Shown here in pieces: positions 45,870-64,000 of a stretch of DNA of 64,000 bases. Positions within the stretch are counted from its first letter, which is position 1. The number at the start of each line of letters is the position of its first letter. The notes under the pieces were generated by a model. That model was not told the DNA's origin, made no database searches, and was given only the letters and a program-made list of their open reading frames with translations. Source of the DNA: Haliovirga abyssi (GTDB lineage: Bacteria; Fusobacteriota; Fusobacteriia; Fusobacteriales; Haliovirgaceae); contig NZ_AP027060.1 of NCBI RefSeq assembly GCF_030295325.1, positions 186,001 to 250,000 on the forward strand, written 5' to 3'. The translations under genes were made by a program, and so were the position numbers.

Positions 45870-45901
45870 AATTCCCTCTCTTCCAATAAAGACAAAAAAC
45901 A

Positions 45902-47376: not shown

Positions 47377-47405
47377 ATTATACACCGTTTTTTTCGAAAT
47401 TGCAA
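47377..47405 (-). promoter_or_regulatory. rep promoter, unit 2
   Basis: TTGCAA-17 bp-TATAAT with the overlapping GTGTAAT/ATTATACAC repeat, as in unit 3. Confidence 0.65.
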
Positions 47406-47453
47406 GTACTTTTTTTGGCGACTATACATCTACATTCACTTTACCAAATTTCT

Positions 47454-47584
47454 TGCAGAAAGAGTCGTCTTTTTCCTGCAGAAAGTGTCGTTAGTTGTGC
47501 AGAAGAAGTCGCTTTTTGCTGCAGAAAAGGTCGTCTTTTAACGCAGAATCTGTCGTCTTTTGTGCAGAAAGTGTCGTTAGTTAG
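47454..47584. repeat. Six iterons, unit 2
   Basis: Same arrangement as 41982-42111, with a few spacer-position substitutions (for example GCAGAAAGTGTCGT). A plus-strand frame through the iterons is not a gene. Confidence 0.9.
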
Positions 47585-47758
47585 GAGATATATCCCTTTA
47601 TTTACAAGGCTTTCAGCTACCTTAAACTTTATTAAACATATATTAAACAAAACCTACAACAGGTGAAATTTAAATTTTTTTATTTTTTTTAATATTTTTT
47701 TATTTTTGTTGTTTTTTTTGAAAAATTTATAAATGAAAGGAAAAACCAGAAGAGGAAA

Positions 47759-47893
47759 TTAATCCTCCTCTGGCTCATAATCTGGACAATCTTCTGGTGA
47801 AATGAAATATTTACAATTATCTTGAATAAGTATGCAACCTAATGCTCCATCATCGCATATATCAAAATACTTACAAGGTCTAATCTCTTCCAT
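47759..47893 (-). CDS. 44-aa Cys-rich protein, unit 2
   Basis: Homologue of 42282-42416 starting MEEIRPCKYF. The fifth cysteine (position 31) is Ile here (KYFISPED), so that residue may not be essential or this copy may be decaying. Confidence 0.68.
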   Translation of the reverse strand: MEEIRPCKYFDICDDGALGCILIQDNCKYFISPEDCPDYEPEED

Positions 47894-47923
47894 CTTTTCC
47901 ACCTCCTTTTTTCTTTACAAGCC

Positions 47924-48018
47924 TCACGAGTAAAGGAAGGAAGTCAAAAGCAGAGTTTGAAATTTTTTTAAGCATTAAAAAAATTTCAAAAAGCTTTTTA
48001 CTTCCTAACGGCTCGTGA
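47924..48018. other. Long imperfect hairpin, unit 2
   Basis: Same nested stems as 42447-42541. Confidence 0.65.
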
Positions 48019-48056
48019 TACAATCGAAAGAAAAGGAGTGGAAAACACAAAAAAAG

Positions 48057-48091
48057 AAAAATCCCAGCTTTTTATCCTGCTGGGATTTTTT
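48057..48091. terminator. Terminator repeat left of the toxin-antitoxin pair, unit 2
   Basis: AAAATCCCAGC..GCTGGGATTTTTT; part of a direct repeat of about 54 bp (48056-48109 and 48801-48855) flanking the toxin-antitoxin genes. Confidence 0.8.
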
Positions 48092-48203
48092 CATTATTCA
48101 ATTTGCTTTGAACATTCCAAAATACCCATTTGCGAAACTCATTTTTTTAAAAAATTAGTGTCGCTGTGCTCATATTTTTTGACAAATATAATTATAAATG
48201 GTA

Positions 48204-48235
48204 TTATATAATTATAGAATTCAATAATTATATAA
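48204..48235 (+). promoter_or_regulatory. Toxin-antitoxin operator, unit 2
   Basis: TTATATAATTAT and ATAATTATATAA form a perfect 12-bp inverted repeat around AGAATTCA, just upstream of the antitoxin ribosome site. It is a probable autoregulation site for the RHH-type antitoxin; an equivalent lies at 54250-54281. Confidence 0.6.
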
Positions 48236-48248
48236 CGAGGTGATAAAA

Positions 48249-48509
48249 ATGAATAGAAAAAGTATAGTTATGGACAAAGAATTATGGGAGCATTTAAAAA
48301 TTTTTAAAGAATTACATAAAAAAAGTATAAGTTTTATTATCAGAGAGGCTGTAAAAAAATATTTAGAAGAAAAAACAAAAAATGATTTAGCTTATAAAAT
48401 GCGAGTATTAACTCCTTATGTAGATGATAAAGAACAAGAAGAAATAAAAAATATATTATCAAATTTAACTAAAGAAGATTTAGAAACAGGTGAAATAATT
48501 GAAATATAA
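48249..48509 (+). CDS. RHH-type antitoxin, unit 2
   Basis: This 86-aa protein has an N-terminal ribbon-helix-helix-like segment (NRKSIVMDKELWEHLKIFKELHKKSISFIIREAVKKYLEEK) and an acidic C-terminal tail that would bind the toxin. GAGGTGATAAAA precedes ATG 48249; a GTG at 48240 lies within the ribosome site. It overlaps the toxin gene by 11 nt. Together they form a type II addiction module, opposite in orientation to rep. Confidence 0.85.
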   Translation: MNRKSIVMDKELWEHLKIFKELHKKSISFIIREAVKKYLEEKTKNDLAYKMRVLTPYVDDKEQEEIKNILSNLTKEDLETGEIIEI

Positions 48510-48777
48510 ATTAAAATTATCTAAAAAAGCAGTCAAATTTTTAAATAAACATTCAAATGAAAAGGAAAAAATTATAAATATTTTTAAAGAAATAATGCCT
48601 AATTACGAAAAAGCTTTAAAAAAATATGATATAAAACAATTAAAAGGAACTCTTGAGGAAACATACAGATTAAGAATTGGAAAATATAGAGTTATTTATA
48701 AAATATATAATGATATTTTAGTTGTATATGTTTTAGCTATAGGAAGTAGAGGAGATATTTATAAAAATTTAAAATAA
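48499..48777 (+). CDS. RelE/ParE-family toxin, unit 2
   Basis: This 92-aa protein has the compact RelE-like fold pattern: YKLKLSKKAVKFLNKH, KKYDIKQLKGTLEETYRLRIGKYRVIYKIYNDILVVYVLAIGSRGDIYKN. The R-x-RIGKYRVIYKI strand pair is typical. It starts at TTG 48499 with AGGTGA upstream, overlapping the antitoxin. RelE-type toxins cut mRNA on the ribosome; ParE-type poison gyrase. Which applies here is not clear. Confidence 0.87.
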   Translation: MKYKLKLSKKAVKFLNKHSNEKEKIINIFKEIMPNYEKALKKYDIKQLKGTLEETYRLRIGKYRVIYKIYNDILVVYVLAIGSRGDIYKNLK

Positions 48778-48801
48778 AACCATTTTTTTACTTTATAAAA
48801 G

Positions 48802-48837
48802 AAAAATCCCAGCTTTTTATCCTGCTGGGATTTTTTT
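48802..48837 (+). terminator. Terminator repeat right of the toxin-antitoxin pair, unit 2
   Basis: Second copy of the AAAATCCCAGC..GCTGGGATTTTTTT hairpin. The 48856-49061 stretch is the conserved hairpin-bearing tail, with no gene. Confidence 0.8.
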
Positions 48838-49061
48838 CATTATTCAATTTGCTTTTAATTTCTTTTAAAATGTACTTTAAATTCATTCTAAGGCTTCTTT
48901 TTTGTTTTTTAGTATTTAGGAACTGCCTTTGCTTTTAAAAACTCATATACGGAAAATTCATTGCCTTAACTTCTCCACTTACCATTAAATTAATTTTGCG
49001 TAATTGAGGATAGGGGAGAGTTTGAGAGGGTAAGGAACTAAGTTCCTTTTCTCCCTCTCAA

Positions 49062-49251
49062 GATATCCTTGCCCAAGTGCTATATATCCACGCTCCCTCC
49101 CCACATCAAACGTTTAGTGGGGAGGAATCAAAGGTGGGGTACTCCTCAAAAGCAGGAGCGAGCACATAATACCACATTATCGGATGCTCTAAGGAGAGCG
49201 CAGTCTCGACGGCTGCGTCGGATAATGTTTATTATGTCGCGAGCGGATAGG
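49062..49251. repeat. GC-rich structured element, copy 3
   Basis: As 35880-36069; the GCAGTC/GACTGC stem has become GCAGTC/GGCTGC, which keeps pairing as G-U. Confidence 0.75.
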
Positions 49252-49295
49252 TGGGGCAAAAGGTAGTAGCTTTTTATTGGTCGGAACATTTTTAA

Positions 49296-49547
49296 TCATT
49301 CATAATATTTTGCTGTTTCCAGTATTTCAGCAAAAATATTCCAAGGAACATTTTTAGGAATTTCTAATTTATTATTTATATAATAATTATCCATTGCTTC
49401 AATTGCCGCTTGAAATGCTTCTAAATAATTTTCAAGTGTGTCATTCTCCCACTCCTCTTTATTTTCTTTAAAATCCATTCTTAATTGTCTGACAAATTCA
49501 ATAAAATCTTTTTTATTTCTTATCTTTTCTACTTCTATTTCTATCAT
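49296..49547 (-). CDS. Candidate immunity protein C, DUF7660-like
   Basis: This 83-aa acidic protein has the pattern DFIEFVRQL..DFKENKEEWENDTLENYLEAFQAAIEAMDNYY.N...P..VPWNIFAEILETAKYYE, which I recall as the DUF7660 family common beside polymorphic toxins. It starts 3 nt after the stop of tip C, with GGGGTGA within the tip gene as ribosome site. It is the presumed antidote to tip C. Confidence 0.78.
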   Translation of the reverse strand: MIEIEVEKIRNKKDFIEFVRQLRMDFKENKEEWENDTLENYLEAFQAAIEAMDNYYINNKLEIPKNVPWNIFAEILETAKYYE

Positions 49548-49550
49548 AAA

Positions 49551-50123
49551 TTATTCACCCCTAACTTTAATATCTAAGCCATCATTTATTGGTTTAAATT
49601 TTCTTTTTATTTCTCTTTCTATTTTTAAATCATTTGTATTAACACGCTTAACATTTATATCAAGTCCAGCATCTTTAAAAGCTTTAAGCCTTCTATTATC
49701 TAACGAATATATTTTACCATCTTTCTCAAAAACTCTTATAGCTGGAATATCATCTGGATTTATAGAACCATTTTTTAATCCTGCAATTAAATCCTCAATT
49801 TTCCCACCATTCTTAAAAGTATTTTTAATACTATTTTGACTAAATCGAATTAAACTCGGATCTAATTTTTTAATTATATTTCCAACCTTTTTCAAAGTAG
49901 AACCAGCTAACGGAAGAGCTAATCCAGCTACTCCAAAAGCTCGATCAGTAGGTTCTCCCCACATGTCTTTACCAGTAGATGCCGTCTTACTATCATTATA
50001 CGATTCTACCCATGGAAGATTTTCAACTAACATTTTAAATCCAGCAGTTACAGTATTTAAATAATGCTGCCCCATCATTGCAATTCCTTCTCCAAAATGC
50101 CCAGACGGATCAACATACCTCAA
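49551..50123 (-). CDS. Orphan Rhs C-terminal tip C, ParB-like-fold toxin
   Basis: 190 codons beginning at the hinge (NP-LRYVDPSGH, first codon TTG). A linker (about 10-95) leads to a toxin domain (about 96-190) with IPAIRVFEKDGKIYSLDNRRLKAFKDAGL, a ParB/sulfiredoxin-like pattern known in polymorphic toxins, some of which are proposed nucleases. It has no convincing start of its own. Unlike tips A and B it is paired with a soluble immunity protein. Confidence 0.75.
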   Translation of the reverse strand: MRYVDPSGHFGEGIAMMGQHYLNTVTAGFKMLVENLPWVESYNDSKTASTGKDMWGEPTDRAFGVAGLALPLAGSTLKKVGNIIKKLDPSLIRFSQNSIKNTFKNGGKIEDLIAGLKNGSINPDDIPAIRVFEKDGKIYSLDNRRLKAFKDAGLDINVKRVNTNDLKIEREIKRKFKPINDGLDIKVRGE

Positions 50124-50124
50124 A

Positions 50125-50132
50125 GGATTCCC
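50125..50132. other. Rhs hinge crossover site, unit 1/tip C boundary
   Basis: GGATTCCC; see 37120-37127. Confidence 0.7.
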
Positions 50133-50217
50133 TAAACAATAACGATACTAAATTTCTATTTTTCTCTAGCCCTTTATTTCCAACATCATTTTAACATATA
50201 TATTTGTATTTGTAAAC

Positions 50218-50268
50218 TTACAAAAACATTACTATTCTATTACTAATAGCATTGTAATGTTTTTGTAA
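50218..50268. repeat. Inverted repeat beside the hinge, unit 1
   Basis: Same 15-bp arms as 37213-37263. Confidence 0.65.
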
Positions 50269-50303
50269 TATTACTTTTCATACACTAAATGGATTTCATA
50301 TAC

Positions 50304-50350
50304 AAAAAAGCTAATAACACGAGCTTATTGCCCGATATTATTAGCTTTTT
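50304..50350 (-). terminator. Terminator overlapping the 239-aa gene stop, unit 1
   Basis: Same hairpin as 37299-37345. Confidence 0.7.
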
Positions 50351-51044
50351 CTGTCTTTTCTCCTAATAAATACTTTATTTCTCTTTCAAACCCATATTTT
50401 TGAAAAAATTCTATTAATGCTACCTCAAATATATTCTTTTGAGTTATATTAAATGCTCTACTATATTCTCTTGCCATTTCATTTAAACTGCTTATTATTT
50501 GTACTGATTTTATTGTATTTATTCCTGGTATCCTATATTTTTTTATCACTTTACCCGAATTTAAATTTAATGCTTCTTCCAGGTTCCCATAATTTTTTGA
50601 CAGTAGCTCTAGTAATTCTATATATTTATCTAAATTTTTCAATTCCTCTAAATTCCTATTTAAATATTCTTCTTTTTTTACAAAATTACTTTCCTTCGAT
50701 GACCATAAATAACCTTTCATTTTCATAAAATTTGACATATCTTTATAATTATCAAAATCAAGTTTTTTTGCAACCTCTTTTGGATCTGCGTTTTCATCTT
50801 GAAAATACATTAAAACCCGTTTTACTCTAAAACTATCATCTACTTTTATCTTTGGGGCTTCTCTTTTTTTCCCTTTTACATATCTTTTCCCTTCTTTTTC
50901 CCAATAATAACCTTTACTTCTTACAAAATTTTTAAATGAATTATAATTTTTATATCCCATTTTTTCTGATAATTCTTCACGTTCTATCCCTTTTTTTAAC
51001 TGTTCAAATATATATCTTAATTTTTCTTCAGAGTTCAATCTCAC
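50325..51044 (-). CDS. 239-aa recombinase-associated protein, unit 1
   Basis: Nearly identical to the copies at 37320 and 44281; small differences such as SFRVKRV for SFRAKRV. Family not recognised. Confidence 0.65.
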   Translation of the reverse strand: MRLNSEEKLRYIFEQLKKGIEREELSEKMGYKNYNSFKNFVRSKGYYWEKEGKRYVKGKKREAPKIKVDDSFRVKRVLMYFQDENADPKEVAKKLDFDNYKDMSNFMKMKGYLWSSKESNFVKKEEYLNRNLEELKNLDKYIELLELLSKNYGNLEEALNLNSGKVIKKYRIPGINTIKSVQIISSLNEMAREYSRAFNITQKNIFEVALIEFFQKYGFEREIKYLLGEKTEKANNIGQ

Positions 51045-51049
51045 ACCTC

Positions 51050-51913
51050 CTAAAGTTCATTTACTGCTTTTCTCATATCTTCATTACTTGCGTTTAAATA
51101 AATCATTGTTGTATTTATGTTTGAATGCCCTAATAGTTTCTGAATTATTTTTATATTTACATTTTTACTAACTAGCGAACTAGCAAATGAATGTCTGAAA
51201 GTATGACTTGTTATTTTTCTACCAAAAAATCCAGCTTTTTTTACTGCTTTTCTTAATGTTATCGCTACATAATAATTTGATAGTTTCCCTGTATATTTTG
51301 TACTAAAAAACCTTGTTGTTTCAACTTCTGGTATGTTATTTTCTTTATATTCCAATAGTATTTTTTTTAACTTTTTTGACATTGGAATATATCTACTTCC
51401 TCCACCTTTTCCATTTCTAATATATATTAATTCTTTCTTAAAATTTATATCTCGTTTTTCTAAAAATAAGCATTCATTTAATCTTAATCCAGTATAATAC
51501 AACGTTTTGAAATATGTTTTCAACAAAGGTTTTTCAATACATCCAATCAATTTTTCAACTTCTTCCTGTGTTAAATATTCTCTCTGTTTATTTATTCTTT
51601 TTATTTTCGGAACTGCTTTTGATAGATCTTCTTTTATCAATTCATTAGAATAAAGGTATTTAAAAAAACTATTTAATCTAATTTGATAAGTTGATAATGT
51701 TGAACTTTCTAATTTTTTCTCTACTAATTTTTTAAAAAAACTTTCCATATCAGATTTTTTTATATCTTCTACATAAATTTTTGAATTTTTTTCCTCTTCA
51801 AGGTAATTTTTAAAATATCTCAATATTACACAATTCCCTTTAATTGTTGCTTTGCTTCTCATTCCTGCTGTAAGTACATATTTCCATTTCTCTATTGCTT
51901 CCACAAATAACAT
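51050..51913 (-). CDS. Tyrosine recombinase/integrase, unit 1
   Basis: 287 aa, essentially identical to 45006-45869 with the full catalytic set. GAGAGGAAATT precedes ATG 51913. Confidence 0.9.
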   Translation of the reverse strand: MLFVEAIEKWKYVLTAGMRSKATIKGNCVILRYFKNYLEEEKNSKIYVEDIKKSDMESFFKKLVEKKLESSTLSTYQIRLNSFFKYLYSNELIKEDLSKAVPKIKRINKQREYLTQEEVEKLIGCIEKPLLKTYFKTLYYTGLRLNECLFLEKRDINFKKELIYIRNGKGGGSRYIPMSKKLKKILLEYKENNIPEVETTRFFSTKYTGKLSNYYVAITLRKAVKKAGFFGRKITSHTFRHSFASSLVSKNVNIKIIQKLLGHSNINTTMIYLNASNEDMRKAVNEL

Positions 51914-51945
51914 AATTTCCTCTCTTCCAATAAAGACAAAAAAAA

Positions 51946-51992
51946 CAAAAAAAGCCAATAATCTGCCAAAATTTTTCATTTTGGCAGTAGCT
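51946..51992 (-). terminator. Terminator-like hairpin between rep and recombinase genes, unit 1
   Basis: Same structure as 40430-40476. Confidence 0.6.
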
Positions 51993-52062
51993 TTTTACAT
52001 CATTTTATGGTATAATTTTTTGACTATTTAGGTGTCGAGCCTACTGTTTCATAGTCTTGGTC

Positions 52063-53349
52063 TTAATCAGTTTCAGCTGGTTTAAGACCTTTTTTATTAT
52101 ATCCATTTTGATGTTCGCCTCTCAATATCTCTATTATTTTTTCTTCTTTCATACTTGCAAATATTGTTGGTCTATTCTTTAAAAATTTTATTCCTTTCAG
52201 TTGTTCCAGCTCTTCTAATGCTGTTTTTTCTATGTCAAGCCTCTCTTTTTCAGGCATATTATTGTAAAATTTTAAAGTTTCTTCTCTTAATTTTGCTTTT
52301 AATTCTGCTGCTGCTTTTTGTTTGTCTAATTCCAATTTCTCTTTTTCTAATCTTTCTTTTTCCGCTGCTGCTTTTACTCTCATTGGTTCTGCATAATCTT
52401 CTTTTATTGCTTTTCTTAAATAATTGTAATATTCTTTATATTTATGACTATTTGTATAATTTAAATTTGATTCTACATGCTCCAATCCATATTCTTTTAT
52501 TAATTTTTTTAATTCTTTTTCTTGTTTTAATGTTAATTTTTCTTTAGCTGGCATTTTCTTTATTAATTCTTCAAATTCCAATGTCTTTTGAATTTTAATT
52601 TTCCCTTTTGGATCTTCTTCAAATATTTCTACTTCATTTCCTGGGAATATTCCATTTCCCTCACTTACTGAAAATCCTTCTTTTGCTTCACCCCAGAATT
52701 TTATATGCCCCATTTTTTTACCATTTCTTATTAATTCATATTTCGTTATATTTATATCTGTTGTTTCATTTATCTCTTTTATTGCTGGTTCTATCACTTT
52801 TCTTCTTAAATCGTGTATTTTATTATATGCTCCTGTTATTCCCAACATAAATTTAAACGTTTCCAATTCCATCTTGGGTATTTGTACTTTTATATAGTCT
52901 TTGCAAAATTCATAAATTGGCAATGAATGTTTTCTACTCATTCCTTTTTGGAAATCTAAATTTAATGGACTAAACATTTTTGGATGGTACAAATTTTTTC
53001 TCACTGTATCTGGAAAGATAAATTCTATATTAAAATCTTTATCTGTTTCTACTTCTGCTAATACTGCAACTGCTCTTCTACTCATAAATTTTTCATTTTC
53101 CAATATATTTATTGTTATTCCTATTTCTACTAATGATTCCAAATTCTTTAGTAGTTCATTATTGTTTATTCTTTTGTCTGTCATTAGACTTTTTACTTCT
53201 TTGTATGTCGATTTGAATATTTTCCTGTCAAAATCTTCATCCATTTGTTGTTTTGCTATATACAGCAACGCATTAAATGCTTTTTTCTGATTTAGACCCA
53301 TCTTTGATGAACTTTGAATTAAAATCCTGCTTTTTTTCAAAATAGCCAT
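52063..53349 (-). CDS. Rep_3-type replication initiator, unit 1
   Basis: 428 aa, nearly identical to the other two copies except at the extreme C-terminus (EILRGEHQNGYNKKGLKPAETD instead of EILSSIHQNG..KSEATD). Confidence 0.88.
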   Translation of the reverse strand: MAILKKSRILIQSSSKMGLNQKKAFNALLYIAKQQMDEDFDRKIFKSTYKEVKSLMTDKRINNNELLKNLESLVEIGITINILENEKFMSRRAVAVLAEVETDKDFNIEFIFPDTVRKNLYHPKMFSPLNLDFQKGMSRKHSLPIYEFCKDYIKVQIPKMELETFKFMLGITGAYNKIHDLRRKVIEPAIKEINETTDINITKYELIRNGKKMGHIKFWGEAKEGFSVSEGNGIFPGNEVEIFEEDPKGKIKIQKTLEFEELIKKMPAKEKLTLKQEKELKKLIKEYGLEHVESNLNYTNSHKYKEYYNYLRKAIKEDYAEPMRVKAAAEKERLEKEKLELDKQKAAAELKAKLREETLKFYNNMPEKERLDIEKTALEELEQLKGIKFLKNRPTIFASMKEEKIIEILRGEHQNGYNKKGLKPAETD

Positions 53350-53420
53350 TTTTTCACCTCTTTTCTTAACGACCTTTTTTAAATTAGTCGTTTTATCATA
53401 TTTATACATTGTGTAATAAA

Positions 53421-53449
53421 ATTATACACCGTTTTTTTCGAAATTGCAA
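53421..53449 (-). promoter_or_regulatory. rep promoter, unit 1
   Basis: TTGCAA-17 bp-TATAAT with the overlapping inverted repeat, as in unit 3. Confidence 0.65.
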
Positions 53450-53497
53450 GTACTTTTTTTGGCGACTATACATCTACATTCACTTTTCCAAATTTCT

Positions 53498-53628
53498 TGC
53501 AGAAAGAGTCGTCTTTTACCTGCAGAAACTGTCGTTAGTTGTGCAGAAGAAGTCGCTTTTTGCTGCAGAAAAGGTCGTCTTTTAACGCAGAATCTGTCGT
53601 CTTTTGTGCAGAAAGTGTCGTTAGTTAG
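53498..53628. repeat. Six iterons, unit 1
   Basis: Same consensus and spacing as 41982-42111. Confidence 0.9.
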
Positions 53629-53804
53629 GAGATATATCCCTTTATTTACAGGGCTTCCAGCTACCTTAAACCTTATTAAACATATATTAAACAAAACCTA
53701 CAACAGGTGAAATTTAAATTTTTTTTATTTTTTTTAATATTTTTTTATTTCTGTTGTATTTTTTTGAAAAATTTATAAATGAAAAGAAAAACCAGAAGAG
53801 GAAA

Positions 53805-53939
53805 TTAATCCTCCTCTGGCTCATAATCTGGACAATCTTCTGGTGAACAGAAATATTTACAATTATCTTGAATAAGTATGCAACCTAATGCTCCATCATC
53901 GCATATATCAAAATACTTACAAGGTCTAATCTCTTCCAT
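53805..53939 (-). CDS. 44-aa Cys-rich protein, unit 1
   Basis: Homologue of 42282-42416 with all six cysteines and start MEEIRPCKYF. AGGAGGTGG precedes ATG 53939. Confidence 0.7.
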   Translation of the reverse strand: MEEIRPCKYFDICDDGALGCILIQDNCKYFCSPEDCPDYEPEED

Positions 53940-53969
53940 CTTTTCCACCTCCTTTTTTCTTTACAAGCC

Positions 53970-54064
53970 TCACGAGTAAAGGAAGGAAGTCAAAAGCAGA
54001 GTTTGAAATTTTTTTAAGCATTAAAAAAATTTCAAAAAGCTTTTTACTTCCTAACGGCTCGTGA
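53970..54064. other. Long imperfect hairpin, unit 1
   Basis: Same nested stems as 42447-42541. Confidence 0.65.
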
Positions 54065-54102
54065 TACAATCGAAAGAAAAGGAGTGGAAAACACAAAAAA
54101 AG

Positions 54103-54137
54103 AAAAATCCCAGCTTTTTATCCTGCTGGGATTTTTT
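54103..54137. terminator. Terminator repeat left of the toxin-antitoxin pair, unit 1
   Basis: Same hairpin as 48057-48091. Confidence 0.8.
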
Positions 54138-54249
54138 CATTATTCAATTTGCTTTGAACATTCCAAAATACCCATTTGCGAAACTCATTTTTTTAAAAAA
54201 TTAGTGTCGCTGTGCTCATATTTTTTGACAAATATAATTATAAATGGTA

Positions 54250-54281
54250 TTATATAATTATAGAATTCAATAATTATATAA
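54250..54281 (+). promoter_or_regulatory. Toxin-antitoxin operator, unit 1
   Basis: Same 12-bp-arm inverted repeat as 48204-48235. Confidence 0.6.
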
Positions 54282-54294
54282 CGAGGTGATAAAA

Positions 54295-54555
54295 ATGAAT
54301 AGAAAAAGTATAGTTATGGACAAAGAATTATGGGAGCATTTAAAAATTTTTAAAGAATTACATAAAAAAAGTATAAGTTTTATTATCAGAGAGGCTGTAA
54401 AAAAATATTTAGAAGAAAAAACAAAAAATGATTTAGCTTATAAAATGCGAGTATTAACTCCTTATGTAGATGATAAAGAACAAGAAGAAATAAAAAATAT
54501 ATTATCAAATTTAACTAAAGAAGATTTAGAAACAGGTGAAATAATTGAAATATAA
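54295..54555 (+). CDS. RHH-type antitoxin, unit 1
   Basis: 86 aa, identical by eye to the copy at 48249-48509. Confidence 0.85.
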   Translation: MNRKSIVMDKELWEHLKIFKELHKKSISFIIREAVKKYLEEKTKNDLAYKMRVLTPYVDDKEQEEIKNILSNLTKEDLETGEIIEI

Positions 54556-54823
54556 ATTAAAATTATCTAAAAAAGCAGTCAAATTTTTAAATAAACATTC
54601 AAATGAAAAGAAAAAAATTATAAATATTTTTAAAGAAATAATGCCTAATTACGAAAAAGCTTTAAAAAAATATGATATAAAACAATTAAAAGGAACTCTT
54701 GAGGAAACATACAGATTAAGAATTGGAAAATATAGAGTTATTTATAAAATATATAATGATATTTTAGTTGTATATGTTTTAGCTATAGGAAGTAGAGGAG
54801 ATATTTATAAAAATTTAAAATAA
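54545..54823 (+). CDS. RelE/ParE-family toxin, unit 1
   Basis: 92 aa with a TTG start; differs from the unit 2 copy by one residue seen (NEKKKI for NEKEKI). Confidence 0.87.
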   Translation: MKYKLKLSKKAVKFLNKHSNEKKKIINIFKEIMPNYEKALKKYDIKQLKGTLEETYRLRIGKYRVIYKIYNDILVVYVLAIGSRGDIYKNLK

Positions 54824-54847
54824 AACCATTTTTTTACTTTATAAAAG

Positions 54848-54883
54848 AAAAATCCCAGCTTTTTATCCTGCTGGGATTTTTTT
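54848..54883 (+). terminator. Terminator repeat right of the toxin-antitoxin pair, unit 1
   Basis: Same hairpin as 48802-48837; the conserved tail follows to 55107. Confidence 0.8.
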
Positions 54884-55107
54884 CATTATTCAATTTGCTT
54901 TTAATTTCTTTTAAAATGTACTTTAAATTCATTCTAAGGCTTCTTTTTTGTTTTTTAGTATTTAGGAACTGCCTTTGCTTTTAAAACCTCATATACGGAA
55001 AATTCATTTCCTTAACTTCTCCACTTACCATTAAATTAATTTTGCGTAATTGAGGATAGGGGAGAGTTTGAGAGGGTAAGGAACTAAGTTCCTTTTCTCC
55101 CTCTCAA

Positions 55108-55297
55108 GATATCCTTGCCCAAGTACCATATATCCACGCTCCCTCCCCACATCAAACGTTTAGTGGGGAGGAATCAAAGGTGGGGCACTCCTCAAAAGCA
55201 GGAGCGAGCACATAATACCACATTATCGGATGCTCTAAGGAGAGCGCAGTCTCGACGGCTGCGTCGGATAATGTTTATTATGTAGCGAGCGGATAGG
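55108..55297. repeat. GC-rich structured element, copy 4
   Basis: As 35880-36069, with G-U pairing in the GCAGTC/GGCTGC stem and AGTACCATAT for AGTGCTATAT near one edge. Confidence 0.75.
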
Positions 55298-55326
55298 TGA
55301 GGCTTGGGAATATTATTTGGGCTATT

Positions 55327-55518
55327 TTAAATTATACTTTCCTCTATACAAGTTTTTACTACTTTTCTAATAGTACCTTCTCCAAAATCTCCACCAATAG
55401 AATATGTGATTTTTAAAATTTTTTTTGTTTTTTCTAATAATTTATTATCATCTATATCGATTTTTAATTCTTCTTTTAATATTGCTTTAGTTAGATTTAT
55501 GTCATTCTTATTATACAT
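55327..55518 (-). CDS. Candidate immunity protein D, 63 aa
   Basis: This small, charged helical protein (LTKAILKEELKIDIDDNKLLEKTKKILKITYS..) starts 19 nt after the stop of the truncated Rhs gene with AGAGGTG upstream. Its position is that of an immunity gene, but 63 aa is short and I do not recognise the family. Confidence 0.6.
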   Translation of the reverse strand: MYNKNDINLTKAILKEELKIDIDDNKLLEKTKKILKITYSIGGDFGEGTIRKVVKTCIEESII

Positions 55519-55537
55519 TATTTCACCTCTTTTAGTT

Positions 55538-58171
55538 TTATTTCAATATTTCTATATCATCTAAATGAATTGACATATTTGTAATTGCTTGAGTTGCTCC
55601 GCCTTCCCCAAACTTTGGAAAATCTTTTGTAAGTGGTTCTAAATAATTAGTTGTATTCCATTTCCCATACGGAATTCTTATATCATCTAATAATTGTAAA
55701 GTATCAAACGAAGCCCTAATAGAAGCATCATGAGGTACTTGTAATTTTCCAGGAGAAGGAATATCATATTTTTCAAAACTAAAATATGTCCCGTTTGTAT
55801 TAGAAGGTATTTTCATACTATTTTGCATTTCCTCTAAATATGTCGCATCTTTAGATACATACCTATATCCAGTAGAAGGAATAACATCTCCATTTGATTT
55901 TACATAAAAATCAGCTTTTGGCTTTGTTATATTTTTCAACTCAGCATTATAGGATTTAGCTCTATCAAAAGCTCCTGCATTTTCCATTCCCATTCCTAAT
56001 GCAAATGCAGAAAACTCTCCAAAATTATAAGCTCCTGAATTAAAATTAACACTACTATTTGTTCCCATTAATTCTCTAATATGATATGTCAATCCAAAGG
56101 AAAGCGTATCTCCCATTCCTGCACTAAAATCTGCAAATGTATAAATTATATCTGCAGCATCATGCCCCGACGGATCGACATACCTAATAGGATTCCCTTT
56201 TGAGTAGCCATATAAGTTCAAACTAAGCGGCTCCTTAATATCGCCCTTGTACGTATCACGACTTATAAATCGTCTTATCTCCGGGCTATAATATCTTGCT
56301 CTTAGATACTGCAATCCACTCTCTTCATCTGTATATTCTCCTGAATATCTAAATGGATTTTTTATGTCTTCTTCTATTTTAAGCTCTTTCCCATACTTAT
56401 CATATTCATAATTATTTTTTATTGTTCCTGACGAATCAAATAGTTTTAGTGTATCTCCATGACTATTTTTCAAATAACCATAGTTTTTCCCATTTATTTC
56501 TCTTCCTATTATTCCTCTTAATCCAAATAAATTTCTTTTTATTTCTCCATTTGATATGTCATTTATAATTTTATTATTTGAATAATAAAATTTTGTTTCT
56601 AATCCATTTACTGCTTTTGACTTCCTTTGATTTGTTGGATAATATTTATATATTCCCGTTATCCCTCTTTTTATATCATTATATTTTGTAAGCCTATTTT
56701 CTATATTATATTTATAAGCTTCTGTTTTTTCTCCATTTATTGACTTATTTAGCAGATTTCCATTATCATCATATTCAAATGAATTTTTTTCTTTTTTACA
56801 TTCCCATATATTATTATTTGATTTTACTCCTTTCCATTTTGTTATATTTATCAACTCATCATCTTCGTTATAATTATACCACAAACCGCCTGTTTCATTC
56901 CAGTTATTATTAACTTTTACTTTATATTTTTCCATACTTATATTTCCCGAAGTTGTATATGTATAGCCCCTATCAATACTATCATTCCCATTATTAATTT
57001 TTAAGTTTCTAATAAGTCTATTCACTCCATCATACATATATATGTTTTTTTGATTAGATATATTATTGATTTCAGTTGTTAAATTTCCTACTTTATCATA
57101 ATCATAAGTATAATCTAAACTCTTCTTTTCATTTAAAGTCCCTTGTAAAGTCATTAAATTTCCAATATCATATGTATATTCTTCAGAATATATAGTTTTT
57201 TTATCTTTTTTTTCTTCTAACTTTTCTAATTTATTATTCATGTAATATTGATATTCTATTTTTTCATCCGTTTCATTATTATCATATATTTTCCATAATC
57301 TATTTCTAGTATCATATATATATTTATAATATTTATTGGTTATATCAGTAACTTTTTTTATGTTTCCATTTTTATTGTACTCATACTTTACGCTTTTTCC
57401 ATCTGGATATACTAACTCTTTTAAGCTACCATCATTATAATATTTATAATTTAATGATTCTTTCTCTAATGAGTTAATAACCTCTTTTATTGAACCATCA
57501 TCATAATATTTATATTCTTTTATTTTATTATCTTCTTCTATTTTATTTTTATAAACATATTGCAATCTATTATAACTATCATATGTATAATAGAATTCTT
57601 GTAATTTCTTGTCTTTTTTATAGATTATATTCCCCAAATAATCGTACTTATAAATATTTGTTTTACCTTTTATTTCTATATTATATAAATCACCTTCATC
57701 TATTTTCCCTTGTTCTGCTTTATTTATACCTTTCAAAACTTCTGAATTTAGTTTTCCTATTTCTTTTATTAATTCTCCTCTTTTATTATATTGCTTTACT
57801 ATACTCCCCCTTGGAGTTAATATTTTAATTATATTTCCAAGTAAATCATAATAGTATTTTATATATATTTTTTCTGTTGGAATTTCTACTTTTATTAATC
57901 TTTCTAACGAATCATAATAATATATAGTTTTAACATCTCTAGCATTTATTATCGTTTTTATTTTTCTAAATCCAGTTATCCAATCTATTTTTTCTTTATT
58001 TGATATATGTTCATTTGAAGATAATTTTTTTATTATATCTTCTGCATTATTTACTTTTGTTAATAATTCTTTAAATGATATTTTCTTCCCACTAAATGTA
58101 CATTGAAATTGCAAATTATCATTAGGGGGTCTTTTTTTCATACTCATAACCTTCCGGTTCTTTGTGTCCAC
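55538..58171 (-). CDS. Truncated Rhs protein carrying toxin tip D
   Basis: 877 codons. After about 17 unrelated residues (MDTKNRKVMSMKKRPPN), the next 645 or so match the C-terminal half of the Rhs core at 58595-64000 almost exactly (DNA repeat 56190-58124 against 59250-61184), with YD repeats and the core end EESGLQYLRARYYSPEIRRFISRDTYKGD...GNPIRYVDPSGH. The tip (about 660-877) ends in ADFYVKSNGDVIPSTGYRY...GTYFSF...RASFDTLQLLDDIRIPYGKW...FGEGGATQAI; I recall this domain from Rhs ends but cannot assign an activity (an ADP-ribosyltransferase-like fold is possible). It lacks the N-terminal half and a delivery domain. Confidence 0.82.
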   Translation of the reverse strand: MDTKNRKVMSMKKRPPNDNLQFQCTFSGKKISFKELLTKVNNAEDIIKKLSSNEHISNKEKIDWITGFRKIKTIINARDVKTIYYYDSLERLIKVEIPTEKIYIKYYYDLLGNIIKILTPRGSIVKQYNKRGELIKEIGKLNSEVLKGINKAEQGKIDEGDLYNIEIKGKTNIYKYDYLGNIIYKKDKKLQEFYYTYDSYNRLQYVYKNKIEEDNKIKEYKYYDDGSIKEVINSLEKESLNYKYYNDGSLKELVYPDGKSVKYEYNKNGNIKKVTDITNKYYKYIYDTRNRLWKIYDNNETDEKIEYQYYMNNKLEKLEEKKDKKTIYSEEYTYDIGNLMTLQGTLNEKKSLDYTYDYDKVGNLTTEINNISNQKNIYMYDGVNRLIRNLKINNGNDSIDRGYTYTTSGNISMEKYKVKVNNNWNETGGLWYNYNEDDELINITKWKGVKSNNNIWECKKEKNSFEYDDNGNLLNKSINGEKTEAYKYNIENRLTKYNDIKRGITGIYKYYPTNQRKSKAVNGLETKFYYSNNKIINDISNGEIKRNLFGLRGIIGREINGKNYGYLKNSHGDTLKLFDSSGTIKNNYEYDKYGKELKIEEDIKNPFRYSGEYTDEESGLQYLRARYYSPEIRRFISRDTYKGDIKEPLSLNLYGYSKGNPIRYVDPSGHDAADIIYTFADFSAGMGDTLSFGLTYHIRELMGTNSSVNFNSGAYNFGEFSAFALGMGMENAGAFDRAKSYNAELKNITKPKADFYVKSNGDVIPSTGYRYVSKDATYLEEMQNSMKIPSNTNGTYFSFEKYDIPSPGKLQVPHDASIRASFDTLQLLDDIRIPYGKWNTTNYLEPLTKDFPKFGEGGATQAITNMSIHLDDIEILK
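56190..58124. repeat. 1.9-kb direct repeat of Rhs core, copy 1
   Basis: Almost identical to 59250-61184 at a constant offset of 3,060 bp. Homology stops exactly at the hinge GGATTCCC on one side and at 58124/61184 on the other. Confidence 0.9.
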
Positions 58172-58234
58172 TAGCTTAGCTAGTGGTTTTCTTTTTTTAT
58201 TAATAAAAAAACTGGAGATTAAATTCCAGTTTTC
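58168..58234. terminator. Two hairpins between immunity E and the truncated Rhs gene
   Basis: 58206-58234: AAAACTGGA..TCCAGTTTT with a T-run on the minus strand, a terminator for the main Rhs-immunity transcript. 58168-58186: CCACTAGCT-T-AGCTAGTGG, followed by T-rich DNA only on the plus strand; it overlaps the GTG at 58171. Confidence 0.7.
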
Positions 58235-58313: not shown

Positions 58314-58631
58314 TTATATCAACTCATTATATTTCCGAGCTAATTTTAATAAGGCACTCCCTAATTCAGAGTATATATCCCAAGAATCCACTATGTTTCT
58401 TGTATATGATGGCAAAAATAACTTTGGTGACATCTTTGTTTTCATCTTTTCAAGCTCTGCTAGTATTCTTTCCAATTCATTTTGAGAAGGAATTAACTCT
58501 GAACTATTATCTTCTCTTTTTATTTTTAATATTTCTTTATTTATCCTAATTTCTAATTCATCAATCATATTAATAACTTTCATTTTCTTTTTTTCTACGG
58601 CATTATTAAATTTTGTCTTTGTACCCACCAT
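58314..58631 (-). CDS. Candidate immunity protein E
   Basis: This 105-aa helical protein overlaps the end of the large Rhs gene by 37 nt, with AGGAGGTGA 7 nt before its ATG. The C-terminal pattern PSYTRNIVDSWDIYSELGSALLKLARKY resembles small proteins I have seen after Rhs tips ending like this one. It is probably the antidote for tip E. Confidence 0.75.
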   Translation of the reverse strand: MVGTKTKFNNAVEKKKMKVINMIDELEIRINKEILKIKREDNSSELIPSQNELERILAELEKMKTKMSPKLFLPSYTRNIVDSWDIYSELGSALLKLARKYNELI

Positions 58632-61600
58632 TGCATTTCACCTCCTGTATATTGCAACCCATAATTTAATTGAGATGCTGCTTTGCCTGTTATTATTTGA
58701 GTTCCTGCTTGCACTTGCCATTGTTGTAATCCTGTCATAAGATTCCAATTTGGAGGAAGAGCTAAACCATATCTATTTGTTAAATTTGTAAAAGTAGGAA
58801 ATAAATATGATCCTGATTTATAAGCTTTTTCCCCAAAATCATGAAACCTCAATCCATAAGTAGCTGTATCTGCAGTTTTCATATTAATTGTTCCTTCTTT
58901 AAAAGATTGCAATATATTAATTCTTTGTTCTCTGCCAACTCCAATATTTTGTAGATATTTTGAAGCTTGTTTTACCCCTGCGTAGGAATCCTTAGTTATT
59001 AATTCACCACTTTCTGCTGCTACTGTAGGTAATAAAAACATTTGAGCAGCATATCCCCCAAGTAAAGTTAATGCCGTTTTATCATAAGTATCTCTTGTCC
59101 ACATCGAAGATAAAAACAACGGCATTAAATACAAGCTATTATCTGTATCAATATATTTATTTGCCCAATATTCACTAGCATATTCTCCTGCTTTTGTCCC
59201 CAAAAATCCATATTCTGCACTATTTCCGGTCGGATCCACATAACTAATCGGATTCCCTTTTGAGTAGCCATATAAGTTCAAACTAAGCGGCTCCTTAATA
59301 TCTCCATTATATGTATCACGACTTATAAATCGTCTTATCTCCGGGCTATAATATCTAGCTCTTAGATACTGCAATCCACTCTCTTCATCTGTATATTCTC
59401 CTGAATATCTAAATGGATTTGTTATGTCTTCTTCTATTTTAAGCTCTTTCCCATACTTATCATATTCATAATTATTTTTTATTGTTCCTGACGAATCAAA
59501 TAGTTTTAGTGTATCTCCATGACTATTTTTCAAATAACTATAGTTTTTCCCATTTATTTCTCTTCCTATTATTCCTCTTAATCCAAATAAATTTCTTTTT
59601 ATTTCTCCATTTGATATGTCATTTATAATTTTATTATTTGAATAATAAAATTTTGTTTCTAATCCATTTACTGCTTTTGACTTCCTTTGATTTGTTGGAT
59701 AATATTTATATATTCCCGTTATTCCTCTTTTTATATCATTATATTTTGTAAGCCTATTTTCTATATTATATTCATAAGCTTCTGTTTTTTCTCCATTTAT
59801 TGACTTATTTCGCAGATTTCCATTATCGTCATATTCAAATGAATTTTTTTCTTTTTTACATTCCCATATATTATTATTTGATTTTACTCCTTTCCATTTT
59901 GTTATATTTATCAACTCATCATCTTCGTTATAATTATACCACAAACCGCCTGTTTCATTCCAGTTATTATTAACTTTTACTTTATATTTTTCCATACTTA
60001 TATTTCCCGAAGTTGTATATGTATAGCCCCTATCAATACTATCATTCCCATTATTAATTTTTAAGTTTCTAATAAGTCTATTCACTCCATCATACATATA
60101 TATGTTTTTTTGATTAGATATATTATTGATTTCAGTTGTTAAATTTCCTACTTTATCATAATCATAAGTATAATCTAAACTCTTCTTTTCATTTAAAGTC
60201 CCTTGTAAAGTCATTAAATTTCCAATATCATATGTATATTCTTCAGAATATATAGTTTTTTTATCTTTTTTTTCTTCTAACTTTTCTAATTTATTATTCA
60301 TGTAATATTGATATTCTATTTTTTCATCCGTTTCATTATTATCATATATTTTCCATAATCTATTTCTAGTATCATATATATATTTATAATATTTATTGGT
60401 TATATCAGTAACTTTTTTTATGTTTCCATTTTTATTGTACTCATACTTTACGCTTTTTCCATCTGGATATACTAACTCTTTTAAGCTACCATCATTATAA
60501 TATTTATAATTTAATGATTCTTTCTCTAATGAGTTAATAACCTCTTTTATTGAACCATCATCATAATATTTATATTCTTTTATTTTATTATCTTCTTCTA
60601 TTTTATTTTTATAAACATATTGCAATCTATTATAACTATCATATGTATAATAGAATTCTTGTAATTTCTTGTCTTTTTTATAGATTATATTCCCCAAATA
60701 ATCGTACTTATAAATATTTGTTTTACCTTTTATTTCTATATTATATAAATCACCTTCATCTATTTTCCCTTGTTCTGCTTTATTTATACCTTTCAAAACT
60801 TCTGAATTTAGTTTTCCTATTTCTTTTATTAATTCTCCTCTTTTATTATATTGCTTTACTATACTCCCCTTTGGAGTTAATATTTTGATTATATTTCCAA
60901 GTAAATCATAATAGTATTTTATATATATTTTTTCTGTTGGAATTTCTACTTTTATTAATCTTTCTAACGAATCATAATAATATATAGTTTTAACATCTCT
61001 AGCATTTATTATCGTTTTTATTTTTCTAAATCCAGCTATCCAATCTATTTTTTCTTTATTTGATATATGTTCATTTGAAGATAATTTTTTTATTATATCT
61101 TCTGCATTATTTACTTTTGTTAATAATTCTTCAAATGATATTTTCTTCCCACTAAATGTACATTGAAATTGCAAATTATCATTATTATCGTAAACATTCC
61201 AATTATGATTTCCTTCTTCATCTATATTCACTTTTACCCTGTTAAACTTATATTGGCTATCCAAATATTTTATTCTTTTTTCTGGAATAATTCCATTATT
61301 TGTTTTGGGATATATTATTTTTGTATTCCTATTTAGTTCGTCGTATTTATAGATAATTTTGTTATCTTCTGCATCTGACTCTGAATTTAATCTTCCTATT
61401 TCATCATATTCATATCCTTTTATTTTATTCCATTCGTTATTCTTATATTCCAAAATTTCTTTTATATTATCATATATATCATATTTTAACTTTACTTTAT
61501 ATATTCCATCATTAGCATATTCTGCTTTCTTTTCCATTATTATTTCTCTTTGTGTATCATCATATTTTATCTCTTTGTCAAAAATCTTATCACCTGAATT

Positions 61601-64000
61601 ATAAATATATCTTAATCTATCTAATTCATCATATTGTTTATATATCTTACTATTATCTCCAGAATTATTTGATAATTGTTCTAATAGAATTAAATTTCCT
61701 GTTTCTTTTCTATAGTTAGAAACACTCTTTATTATATTCTCTTTGCCTGTATAATCTTTTTCATAGATATTTTTTGTTATACTATACCCATTATATGTTT
61801 GATTCCAAGGAGTTACTATATTTACATTATCATTATATTCATATCTTTCTTTATAATTACTTTCTTTTCCAGCAACATATCTATCAAAATCCCATTTGCT
61901 AATCTCTTTTAATCTTCCATCGTCATAATAATTATATTTTTCATAAATATTATTCGGATTATTATCTGCATCAAAATTATGTATGATTTTTAGTCCTATG
62001 TTCTTTTTGTTTTCTGTAAGCTCAAAGTCCATCTGTTTATTAATTACTAAATCTTTACTATCATCTGCTTTTTCTATATCATATGATCCACTATAGCCTA
62101 CTTTTATAGATTTAGGCAGTTCCCAGAAATGATTCCCTTCTGATGTACTGTAATATTCAAATTTATCAACTCTATCATAATAATCCAATTCATCCATATG
62201 AACAGATTTTTTTTTATTTCCATTATCATAATATCTATAATATTGGATTTCTGAATTGTTTTGTTTGCCTAAATAAAAATTTGATTTTGTTACTTTTGTT
62301 GGATATACATCTTTGAAATAATCTTCATACCATATACACTGTATTTTTTCAATATCACTTCCTTGTCCATTTTTATCTTTATCTATCCATTTTATTTCAT
62401 TTGTTTTTAGTCTTTTCCAATTATATAAATATGTAGTTTTTAAATTCGTTTTTGAATTTGTTTCTGTTGTTGTAAACCAATATTTTTCTTTATCATAATT
62501 ATCATAGTTATAATTCTCCTCTTTCATTCCAGCCAATAAATATCCGCCATTTTTAAATTGAGAATCATAATTGTAAATTAATTTAAATTCAAATTCATTT
62601 TTTTTGAATTTGTCATCACTCTTATATATTATTTTATTTTTTAATCTATAATATATTTTTCGAGCATGAAGCTCAAAATGATCTTCAACATAAAAGAATG
62701 GTGGTGGACATAATGAATAAATAACATCATGTCGTCTCCCATATTTTTCTTCAAACTGCTCATATTCTAATTTTATTATTTTACCACTATTTTCTGTTAT
62801 TTTATTTAAATATGAAAAAGAAATCTCTTTTTTATCATCTGGTACATTTGTTTCATTTCCTTTTAGTAATCCTAACAATTTTTGGTATTGTTCTCTCTTA
62901 ATCTCATCTTTTATTGAATACTTAAGGTAATCAAAACTTGTTTTTCTATTTTTTTGATCTACTCTTGTTAAAATTTCCCCCTTTCTTTTAATATATTCTA
63001 TATTTTTATTTGTTGGCAATTCAATAGTTACTTTATTGTTTTTATTGGTAATTATAATTTTATTTTTATAAGTATCTTCTATTATTATTTTATTAGTTTT
63101 GTAAATAAAAATAATTTTATCCTTAAACCTATTCTCTATAAAATTTAATTTCCCTGTATTATCAAAAACATAAGTTATTCCTGTTATCATATTCATTAAA
63201 TAATATTTATTTCCTTCTTTTTTTAATTTTATATTATTTAATTTATGATCTTTTAATTTATTATTATCAATTTCAATTCTACTACCATTAGATAACATTA
63301 ATATATCTTTTTTATTTTTATTATTTCCAAATTTTGAATATCCTAATATAATTTCTGGAAAACATATTCTCCAACCAGAACCTATCTTAAATTTTCCTTC
63401 TATATCATAAAAACTTGTACTATATATTGTTTCAATTTTTAAATTCAAATTATTTTTTCCAGGTAAATTTAAATCAGTTATTTTATAGTTAAAGTCTCCT
63501 GTAACTAAATTAATATCTGCTTTATTTTTGTACTTAGTTAGCGTGTTAGCGACAGAATTTAAAAAATTATCATCATTACTTACATTTTCTGCACTTCCTC
63601 TTGTAATTATTTCTTTTTTTATATTTCCATTTTCAATTATGTATTTTCCACTTTCTGTTATCTCATAATTTTTATCATAATCTCCTTTATTGTTTGTAAA
63701 TTTTAAAATTAAAGGTTCTTCAAATTTTATTTCTATTTTATTATATATTTTTCCATATAATATACTTTTTTCTAATTTTATTGGTGGAACTTTATCACTA
63801 TCTACTTTCATATATACGTTTTCCCAATCACTTAAATAATAAATTGTTGCTTTTTTACTTAATTCTACTGTGGGACTACTTTCTAACGCCACATTTTTTG
63901 ACATTTCAATTCTTTTGACTATGTTTTCTTTTTTTATTTCCGAACTTTTTACAAGATATTTCCCTACCTCATTCCCCATATCCAACAACAAATTCTTTTC
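58595..64000 (-). CDS. Large Rhs (YD-repeat) protein with toxin tip E, 5' end outside window
   Basis: At least 1,800 residues; the frame is open to the right edge, so the true start lies outside. An N-terminal segment (visible residues about 150-330) has the GDFNYKITDLNLPGKNNLNLKIETIYSTSFYD pattern of Rhs/Tc shells. Many YD repeats follow (YKYDYLGNIIYKKD, YEYNKNGNIKKVTD), then the core end (LQYLRARYYSPEIRRFISRDTYNGD) and hinge GNPISYVDPTG. The tip (about 215 residues) includes VKQASKYLQNIGVGREQRINILQSF...YGLRFHDFG...ALPPNWNLMTGLQQWQVQAGTQIITGKAA...YTGGEMQWWVQ, an Rhs tip type of activity unknown to me. Confidence 0.9.
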   Translation of the reverse strand, partial: EKNLLLDMGNEVGKYLVKSSEIKKENIVKRIEMSKNVALESSPTVELSKKATIYYLSDWENVYMKVDSDKVPPIKLEKSILYGKIYNKIEIKFEEPLILKFTNNKGDYDKNYEITESGKYIIENGNIKKEIITRGSAENVSNDDNFLNSVANTLTKYKNKADINLVTGDFNYKITDLNLPGKNNLNLKIETIYSTSFYDIEGKFKIGSGWRICFPEIILGYSKFGNNKNKKDILMLSNGSRIEIDNNKLKDHKLNNIKLKKEGNKYYLMNMITGITYVFDNTGKLNFIENRFKDKIIFIYKTNKIIIEDTYKNKIIITNKNNKVTIELPTNKNIEYIKRKGEILTRVDQKNRKTSFDYLKYSIKDEIKREQYQKLLGLLKGNETNVPDDKKEISFSYLNKITENSGKIIKLEYEQFEEKYGRRHDVIYSLCPPPFFYVEDHFELHARKIYYRLKNKIIYKSDDKFKKNEFEFKLIYNYDSQFKNGGYLLAGMKEENYNYDNYDKEKYWFTTTETNSKTNLKTTYLYNWKRLKTNEIKWIDKDKNGQGSDIEKIQCIWYEDYFKDVYPTKVTKSNFYLGKQNNSEIQYYRYYDNGNKKKSVHMDELDYYDRVDKFEYYSTSEGNHFWELPKSIKVGYSGSYDIEKADDSKDLVINKQMDFELTENKKNIGLKIIHNFDADNNPNNIYEKYNYYDDGRLKEISKWDFDRYVAGKESNYKERYEYNDNVNIVTPWNQTYNGYSITKNIYEKDYTGKENIIKSVSNYRKETGNLILLEQLSNNSGDNSKIYKQYDELDRLRYIYNSGDKIFDKEIKYDDTQREIIMEKKAEYANDGIYKVKLKYDIYDNIKEILEYKNNEWNKIKGYEYDEIGRLNSESDAEDNKIIYKYDELNRNTKIIYPKTNNGIIPEKRIKYLDSQYKFNRVKVNIDEEGNHNWNVYDNNDNLQFQCTFSGKKISFEELLTKVNNAEDIIKKLSSNEHISNKEKIDWIAGFRKIKTIINARDVKTIYYYDSLERLIKVEIPTEKIYIKYYYDLLGNIIKILTPKGSIVKQYNKRGELIKEIGKLNSEVLKGINKAEQGKIDEGDLYNIEIKGKTNIYKYDYLGNIIYKKDKKLQEFYYTYDSYNRLQYVYKNKIEEDNKIKEYKYYDDGSIKEVINSLEKESLNYKYYNDGSLKELVYPDGKSVKYEYNKNGNIKKVTDITNKYYKYIYDTRNRLWKIYDNNETDEKIEYQYYMNNKLEKLEEKKDKKTIYSEEYTYDIGNLMTLQGTLNEKKSLDYTYDYDKVGNLTTEINNISNQKNIYMYDGVNRLIRNLKINNGNDSIDRGYTYTTSGNISMEKYKVKVNNNWNETGGLWYNYNEDDELINITKWKGVKSNNNIWECKKEKNSFEYDDNGNLRNKSINGEKTEAYEYNIENRLTKYNDIKRGITGIYKYYPTNQRKSKAVNGLETKFYYSNNKIINDISNGEIKRNLFGLRGIIGREINGKNYSYLKNSHGDTLKLFDSSGTIKNNYEYDKYGKELKIEEDITNPFRYSGEYTDEESGLQYLRARYYSPEIRRFISRDTYNGDIKEPLSLNLYGYSKGNPISYVDPTGNSAEYGFLGTKAGEYASEYWANKYIDTDNSLYLMPLFLSSMWTRDTYDKTALTLLGGYAAQMFLLPTVAAESGELITKDSYAGVKQASKYLQNIGVGREQRINILQSFKEGTINMKTADTATYGLRFHDFGEKAYKSGSYLFPTFTNLTNRYGLALPPNWNLMTGLQQWQVQAGTQIITGKAASQLNYGLQYTGGEMQWWVQRQNLIMP
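59250..61184. repeat. 1.9-kb direct repeat of Rhs core, copy 2
   Basis: Partner of 56190-58124. This pair allows unequal crossover that could delete or add the intervening tip E, immunity E and hairpin region. Confidence 0.9.

Follow-up and report, generated by a model that had tools for sequence, protein, structure and literature searches.

The window analysed here, 64,000 bp of Haliovirga abyssi DNA (positions 186001–250000 of the 297,551-bp contig NZ_AP027060.1, in a 2.73-Mb genome of two contigs), carries an rhs gene followed by an array of Rhs tips that are separated by plasmid-like sequence. Positions are those of the window, and features lie on the minus strand unless otherwise given. 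The 3′ part of the full-length rhs gene (2390 aa in all, extending past the window), which ends in tip 5, occupies 58595–63991. Behind it lies an orphan Rhs core fragment (56198–58124), 99.2% identical to the full-length core over 1935 nt with the hinge included, the hinge being the point at which a core or a backbone meets a tip. From 56197 down to 37128 there follow three tandem plasmid-like units in the same direction, each running from hinge to hinge, and then a fourth, distal tip. The arrangement is that of a displacement array, in which a core gene is followed by displaced pairs of tip and downstream gene.

Each unit consists of one Rhs tip with one small downstream open reading frame (ORF; 0.9–1.05 kb together and different in each unit), followed by a near-identical backbone (97–99% identity among the three). 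Unit 1 (50133–56197, 6065 bp) carries tip 1 (55538–56197, 219 aa from the hinge and in frame with the orphan core), for which no Pfam or NCBIfam match was found, and a 63-aa ORF (55327–55518). Unit 2 (44089–50132, 6044 bp) carries tip 2 (49551–50132, 193 aa), with a weak match to the pre-toxin domain PT-TG that falls below the curated cut-off (PF14449, E = 6e-4), and a DUF7660 gene (49296–49547; PF24693, E = 6e-28). Unit 3 (37128–44088, 6961 bp) carries tip 3 (43492–44088, 198 aa) and a gene for a 115-aa hydrophobic protein (43121–43468). The distal tip after the last unit, tip 0 (36531–37127), is followed by a gene for a 130-aa hydrophobic protein (36142–36534) diverged from that of tip 3. 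Because of their position, the small ORFs after the tips are read as putative immunity genes, the assignment being by position only for those behind tips 1, 3 and 0.

The backbones have a common order: a GC-rich element, a ParE-type pair (units 1 and 2), six iterons, a Rep_3-type initiator gene, a tyrosine recombinase gene and the gene of its 239-aa partner, then a terminator-like hairpin, a 63-bp palindrome, a promoter-like sequence directed toward the tip and, finally, the hinge. Replication functions and an integrase are found inside one unit, as in integrative plasmids, and taken together the genes match those of a small theta plasmid. Serial integration at a single site would leave an array of this kind.

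The hinge and the switch of tips

The 8-bp motif GGGAATCC occurs six times in the window, against 0.53 expected from shuffled sequences. Five copies, on the minus strand at 37120, 44081, 50125, 56190 and 59250, mark the hinges and lie where a preliminary description of this DNA had placed them; the sixth (7347) is inside an unrelated permease-like ORF. We also find, as that description had it, that the left side is constant (YRYCLGNP on backbones, YGYSKGNP on cores) and that the tip side varies directly after the hinge, the next two bases being GG, GT, TT, TA and GA, respectively. The 8-mer was further said to be the only string common to all five sites. This needs correcting: the shared string is the 9-bp AGGGAATCC, and more invariant bases lie on the tip side, namely T (+3), AG (+5, +6), TATGT (+8 to +12) and GATCCG (+14 to +19). 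The composite pattern occurs five times in the 2.7-Mb genome, always at this locus, and a scan of 95 further genomes from the order gave no copy.

Three of the hinges join backbones to tips: that of unit 1 to tip 2 (50125–50133), that of unit 2 to tip 3 (44081–44089) and that of unit 3 to distal tip 0 (37120–37128). The other two belong to Rhs cores. At 56190–56198 the orphan core meets tip 1, forming an occupied site, and at 59250–59258 the full-length Rhs meets tip 5 with no plasmid behind it, making this an unoccupied candidate attB; the left sides of these two are the same and the tips differ from +1. The five sites are not independent and reduce to two lineages, backbone and core, because the backbones (about 97–99%) and the cores (99.2%) are so similar among themselves.

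The change of sequence at the hinge is abrupt. For 192 bp left of the hinge units 1 and 3 are identical through GGGAATCC, after which +1 and +2 read TT in one and GG in the other and the tips are unrelated. The two Rhs cores, too, stop at the same place and continue into different tips. Backbone and core differ from one another immediately left of AGGGAATCC, with 16 of 23 nt in agreement up to the hinge end. Since identical backbones and near-identical cores switch tips right at the hinge, the crossover would, on the simplest reading, be bracketed inside the 9 bp of AGGGAATCC. An identical core at all junctions, with a switch on both of its sides, is what characterises attP and attB, and the Rhs reading frame is kept there, as had been proposed. 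A crossover to the right of the 8-mer was considered, as positions +2 and +4 correlate with the left side, and was ruled out, because units whose left sides are identical over 192 bp diverge at +1 and +2. Of the 597 nt of tips 3 and 0, all but 4 are the same; hinge +2 is among the 4, which may be chance or the trace of a mismatch in the overlap.

Candidate half-sites flank the 9-mer. On the left, the backbone closes with an Rhs-like half-site (50133–50147 in unit 1, TATCGTTATTGTTTA) that codes for YRYCL behind a stop and, together with the hinge, gives YRYCLGNP. On the right, a conserved block after the hinge is a candidate right half-site (56160–56189 in tip 1, TATTAGGTATGTCGATCCGTCGGGGCATGA). 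Tip 1 (hinge 56190) and tips 3 and 0 (hinges 44081 and 37120), otherwise unrelated, have 28 bp in common (AGGTATGTCGATCCGTCGGGGCATGATG), and the codons for RYVDPSGHD are identical between the unrelated tips 1 and 3 (chance 0.009), several of them rare ones (GTC 1.8%, CCG 5%, TCG 8%). This conservation at the level of DNA suggests that the full site probably takes in the first ~30 bp of the tip.

At the backbone-linked sites (37120–37127, 44081–44088 and 50125–50132) the hinge is followed by a GTG or TTG codon and AGGG stands 6 nt before it, so that translation of displaced tips might start weakly there; the core-linked sites have ATT.

Gene content of the backbones

The recombinase of unit 1 (51050–51979, 309 aa; PF00589, 3e-35) has a Phage_integrase catalytic domain with the complete set of catalytic residues, R166, K190, H259-x-x-R262, H285 and Y294. 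A second intact copy lies in unit 2 (45006–45935; E = 3e-198, query 1–309), and the copy in unit 3 (38045–40463) is split by an insertion sequence (IS) with an rve-type transposase (ORF 38660–40015, plus strand). In sequence the enzyme is XerA/C-like, and other Xer-like genes are present elsewhere in the host genome. It scores below the curated cut-offs for XerC (152.8 vs 335 bits), XerD (150.6 vs 330) and XerA (187.5 vs 220), which places it outside the host dif-Xer recombinases, and below that of the integron integrase family TIGR02249 (122 vs 265 bits). Its 239-aa partner (50325–51044, also 44281–45000 and 37320–38039) is predicted with modest confidence to consist of two helix-helix-helix-strand-strand repeats and a helical C-terminus; a fold search with this model gave no match, and we regard the partner as a putative small DNA-binding protein.

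The initiator gene (52063–53409, also 46019–47365 and 40547–41893; 448 aa, PF21205, 3e-15) adjoins an array of six iterons spaced 21–23 bp apart (53493–53627). The ParE-type toxin and its upstream partner ORF lie on the plus strand (54286–54823, also 48240–48777, none in unit 3; PF05016, 3e-9 for 54545–54823), and weak plasmid toxin-antitoxin matches fall in Cetobacterium and Leptotrichia. The three backbones (50133–55312 and the other two) are mosaic: each in turn departs from the other two over long runs, which points to recombination between plasmids or between units of the array.

The inverted repeat noted earlier near the hinge does exist and proves to be larger. It is a 63-bp palindrome (50212–50274, also 44168–44230 and 37207–37269) whose 31-nt arms are 87% complementary and contain perfect 15-bp arms. 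All three backbones have it, 79 bp from the hinge, and neither core does. Being confined to the backbones, it could also be a dimer-resolution site, an operator or an attenuator. Overlapping it is a candidate sigma-70-like promoter directed toward the hinge and tip (50188–50216, TTTACA-17-TAAAAT with an extended −10), predicted from consensus match only.

A structured GC-rich element (54985–55312, also 48939–49257, 42720–43044 and 35772–36082; z −7.1) follows each pair of tip and downstream gene. The ~313-bp repeat behind all four array tips is 96–98% identical and also lies next to an Rpn gene at the far end. The element matches no Rfam family, and part of it occurs once on the main chromosome (C1:1858836–1858952). 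That copy is ~500 bp from a TnpA-like gene and not at its edge, and an origin from an IS200 end was rejected; the element could serve recombination, transfer or termination. Beyond tip 0 the same element is followed by an Rpn-type nuclease gene. At 33742–35716, past the array, two tandem Rpn-type genes with their upstream regions are ~93% identical over 810 bp, the first being a PD-(D/E)XK nuclease by Pfam.

Proposed integration at the hinge and its alternatives

The units and their gene content, the preserved frame, the abrupt switch at AGGGAATCC and the complete catalytic residues are direct readings of the DNA. We infer, with some confidence, that an Rhs toxin gene at this locus took up small integrative plasmids one after another, by recombinase-mediated integration at the hinge. 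Each plasmid would have had an iteron/Rep_3 origin, a tyrosine recombinase with its partner, one core-less Rhs tip beginning exactly at the recombination site, and a putative immunity gene. Its attP would read backbone (YRYCL), AGGGAATCC, tip, and the attB of the host Rhs core (YGYSK), AGGGAATCC, old tip. A single crossover inside AGGGAATCC would join the new tip in frame to the Rhs core and move the old tip downstream, behind the plasmid backbone, from whose promoter the displaced pairs would stay transcribed. The array would grow by repeated integration, and the reverse crossover would free a circle with its own tip. The unit farthest from the core is the most decayed, with an IS in its recombinase gene, as would be expected if newcomers enter next to the core.

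The proposal that the hinge is the strand-exchange core of a tyrosine recombinase site stands in part. The switch is bracketed inside AGGGAATCC, and two of the three units encode an apparently intact enzyme at a distance of ~0.9 kb. The search for inverted core-type arms at the hinge gave nothing convincing (best 5–8/12, near chance), and the enzyme is only a candidate for cutting there. Several further points weigh against integration at the hinge. Protein-level conservation of Gly-Asn-Pro accounts for much of the 8-bp identity; the ~313-bp repeat after every array tip would let homologous recombination make the same array; the backbones are mosaic, so homologous recombination has acted at the locus; no tip occurs both core-linked and backbone-linked, and no single integration event is documented; and the databases searched gave no relative of the recombinase, partner or initiator close enough for a comparison of att sites.

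Could homologous recombination alone have built the array, with the hinge only the natural boundary of Rhs core and tip and the recombinase serving another function? In detail, a plasmid with a captured tip, downstream gene and GC-rich repeat would have entered through the ~313-bp repeat that follows the native tip, and those arriving after it through the 5-kb backbone. The GC-rich repeat is of sufficient length for such exchange, integration via it yields the same order of parts, the repeat is present behind every array tip as well as next to the Rpn gene, the backbones are mosaic, and such recombination is documented for Rhs tip exchange (PMC2935791, PMC3967940). It leaves unexplained why backbones end in an Rhs-like stretch abutting the tips exactly at the hinge, and how tips pass between plasmid and core contexts whose left sides agree at just 16 of 23 nt. 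Agreement of this extent is too little for ordinary homologous recombination. We consider this route unlikely. Another function for the recombinase would be that of a plasmid multimer resolvase acting at the 63-bp palindrome and not at the hinge, consistent with its XerA/XerC/XerD-like sequence, with a strong palindrome in all backbones and none at the cores, and with a hinge that has no clear inverted arms. The unit boundaries, however, are at the hinge and not at the palindrome, and conservation of the sequence between the two runs right up to the base that precedes the tip. The palindrome also overlaps the candidate promoter and does not explain an Rhs-like half-site exactly at the tips, and its 1-nt centre would be unusual in a site that has a 6–8 bp overlap; a resolvase so placed seems improbable.

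It could also be that the sites have GGGAATCC in common merely through conservation of Gly-Asn-Pro at Rhs hinges, with no recombination site at all. Six of the eight bases are set by these residues, and the free GGN–AAY codon choices would be identical by chance with a probability of ~0.38, so that the 8-mer by itself is weak evidence; the abrupt switch between left and right is the real evidence. The backbone, moreover, is not an Rhs gene, a stop preceding YRYCLGNP, yet the match falls exactly at the junction in every unit. This explanation is largely refuted by the module boundaries and strikes us as very improbable. Stronger evidence than the 8-mer for plasmid integration at the hinge comes from the abrupt switch, the Rhs-like backbone end behind a stop, the recombinase gene within that same block and the codon agreement on the tip side.

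Relatives of the recombinase, partner, initiator and Rhs core were sought in the 95 other genomes of the order, PLSDB, IMG/VR and GTDB genomes, and only distant Xer-type recombinases and generic Rep_3 proteins were found. A regex scan of the loci of these distant recombinases detected no Rhs hinge. Searching the order for RHS_repeat gave two genomes, one of them probably contaminant DNA and neither with a recognisable hinge, though this search is insensitive, since it missed the Rhs genes of the present genome. Among open-licence papers we found no report of a plasmid integrating at an Rhs hinge.

Rhs displacement and related systems

In the model of Jackson et al. 2009 (PMC2935791) for the displacement of Rhs C-termini, an incoming circle fuses a new tip to the core, the old tip is shunted downstream, and an episomal reservoir of tips is posited. 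The present locus likewise has displaced tips arrayed behind a core gene. It differs in its circle, which would be a replicating plasmid that encodes a recombinase and has no more than ~23 nt of core-like sequence. Displaced tips that keep a core fragment, a feature of that model, are found here only in the case of the orphan core, tips 2, 3 and 0 keeping just the 23-nt look-alike. In Salmonella, Koskiniemi et al. 2014 (PMC3967940) described an orphan tip and immunity gene behind the main gene, where fusion to the main core activates the tip by homologous recombination via 522 bp of 95% identical core. Here, in contrast, the orphan core is 1935 nt long at 99.2% identity, and core fragments are missing from the remainder of the array.

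This 1.9-kb orphan core suggests that the main gene acquired tip 5 later, in a separate displacement by homologous recombination. In such an event, of the type described by Jackson et al., tip 5 would have taken the main gene and pushed the plasmid-loaded tip downstream. Just before the left edge of the orphan core (58124) is a short hairpin (58168–58190, CCACTAGCTAAGCTAGTGG) that resembles an IS200/IS605-type end and whose right half occurs nowhere else in the window. Upstream of the full-length rhs gene itself are genes for a fibronectin type III protein and a leucine-rich-repeat protein, and a block that includes a secretin (L109:7784–18951, mostly outside the window); type II secretion and type IV pilus systems have such a secretin, and there may be a link to delivery.

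Integrative plasmids with a tyrosine integrase, such as pHS87b (PMC4739549), likewise have an adjacent attachment site and are also found integrated; the site there is tRNA-associated, whereas here it would lie within the coding frame of a toxin, to which the plasmid would give a new functional 3′ end. The rAID systems of Bacteroidales (PMC12247911) place a tyrosine recombinase beside an array of co-oriented immunity-type genes. They have one recombinase followed by orphan immunity genes, while here the units are whole plasmids, each with a tip, a neighbouring gene, an origin and a recombinase of its own. Integrons similarly use a tyrosine recombinase to add promoterless cassettes next to a fixed upstream part; the locus differs in having no integron integrase at cut-off, no one-gene cassettes and no demonstrated attC, and its units could replicate themselves.

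The locus suggests that Rhs genes can receive ready-to-use replacement tips from plasmids. A more specific picture, which we hold to be evenly balanced, is that of a self-replicating plasmid family whose dedicated recombinase is aimed at the Rhs hinge as a docking site, so that one crossover fits the delivery protein of the recipient with a new toxin and antidote while displaced antidotes are expressed from the outward promoter. The gain of unrelated tips by Rhs and similar polymorphic toxins, without loss of the old ones, has so far been explained by homologous recombination with hypothetical circles (PMC2935791). If integration at the hinge is correct, a replicating plasmid with a recombinase, a neighbouring gene and a tip that starts exactly at the Rhs hinge would supply both the episomal tip carrier and the integrase that the 2009 model lacks, making that model directly testable, and the conserved Rhs hinge would be under selection as DNA, by mobile elements, as well as in the form of protein.
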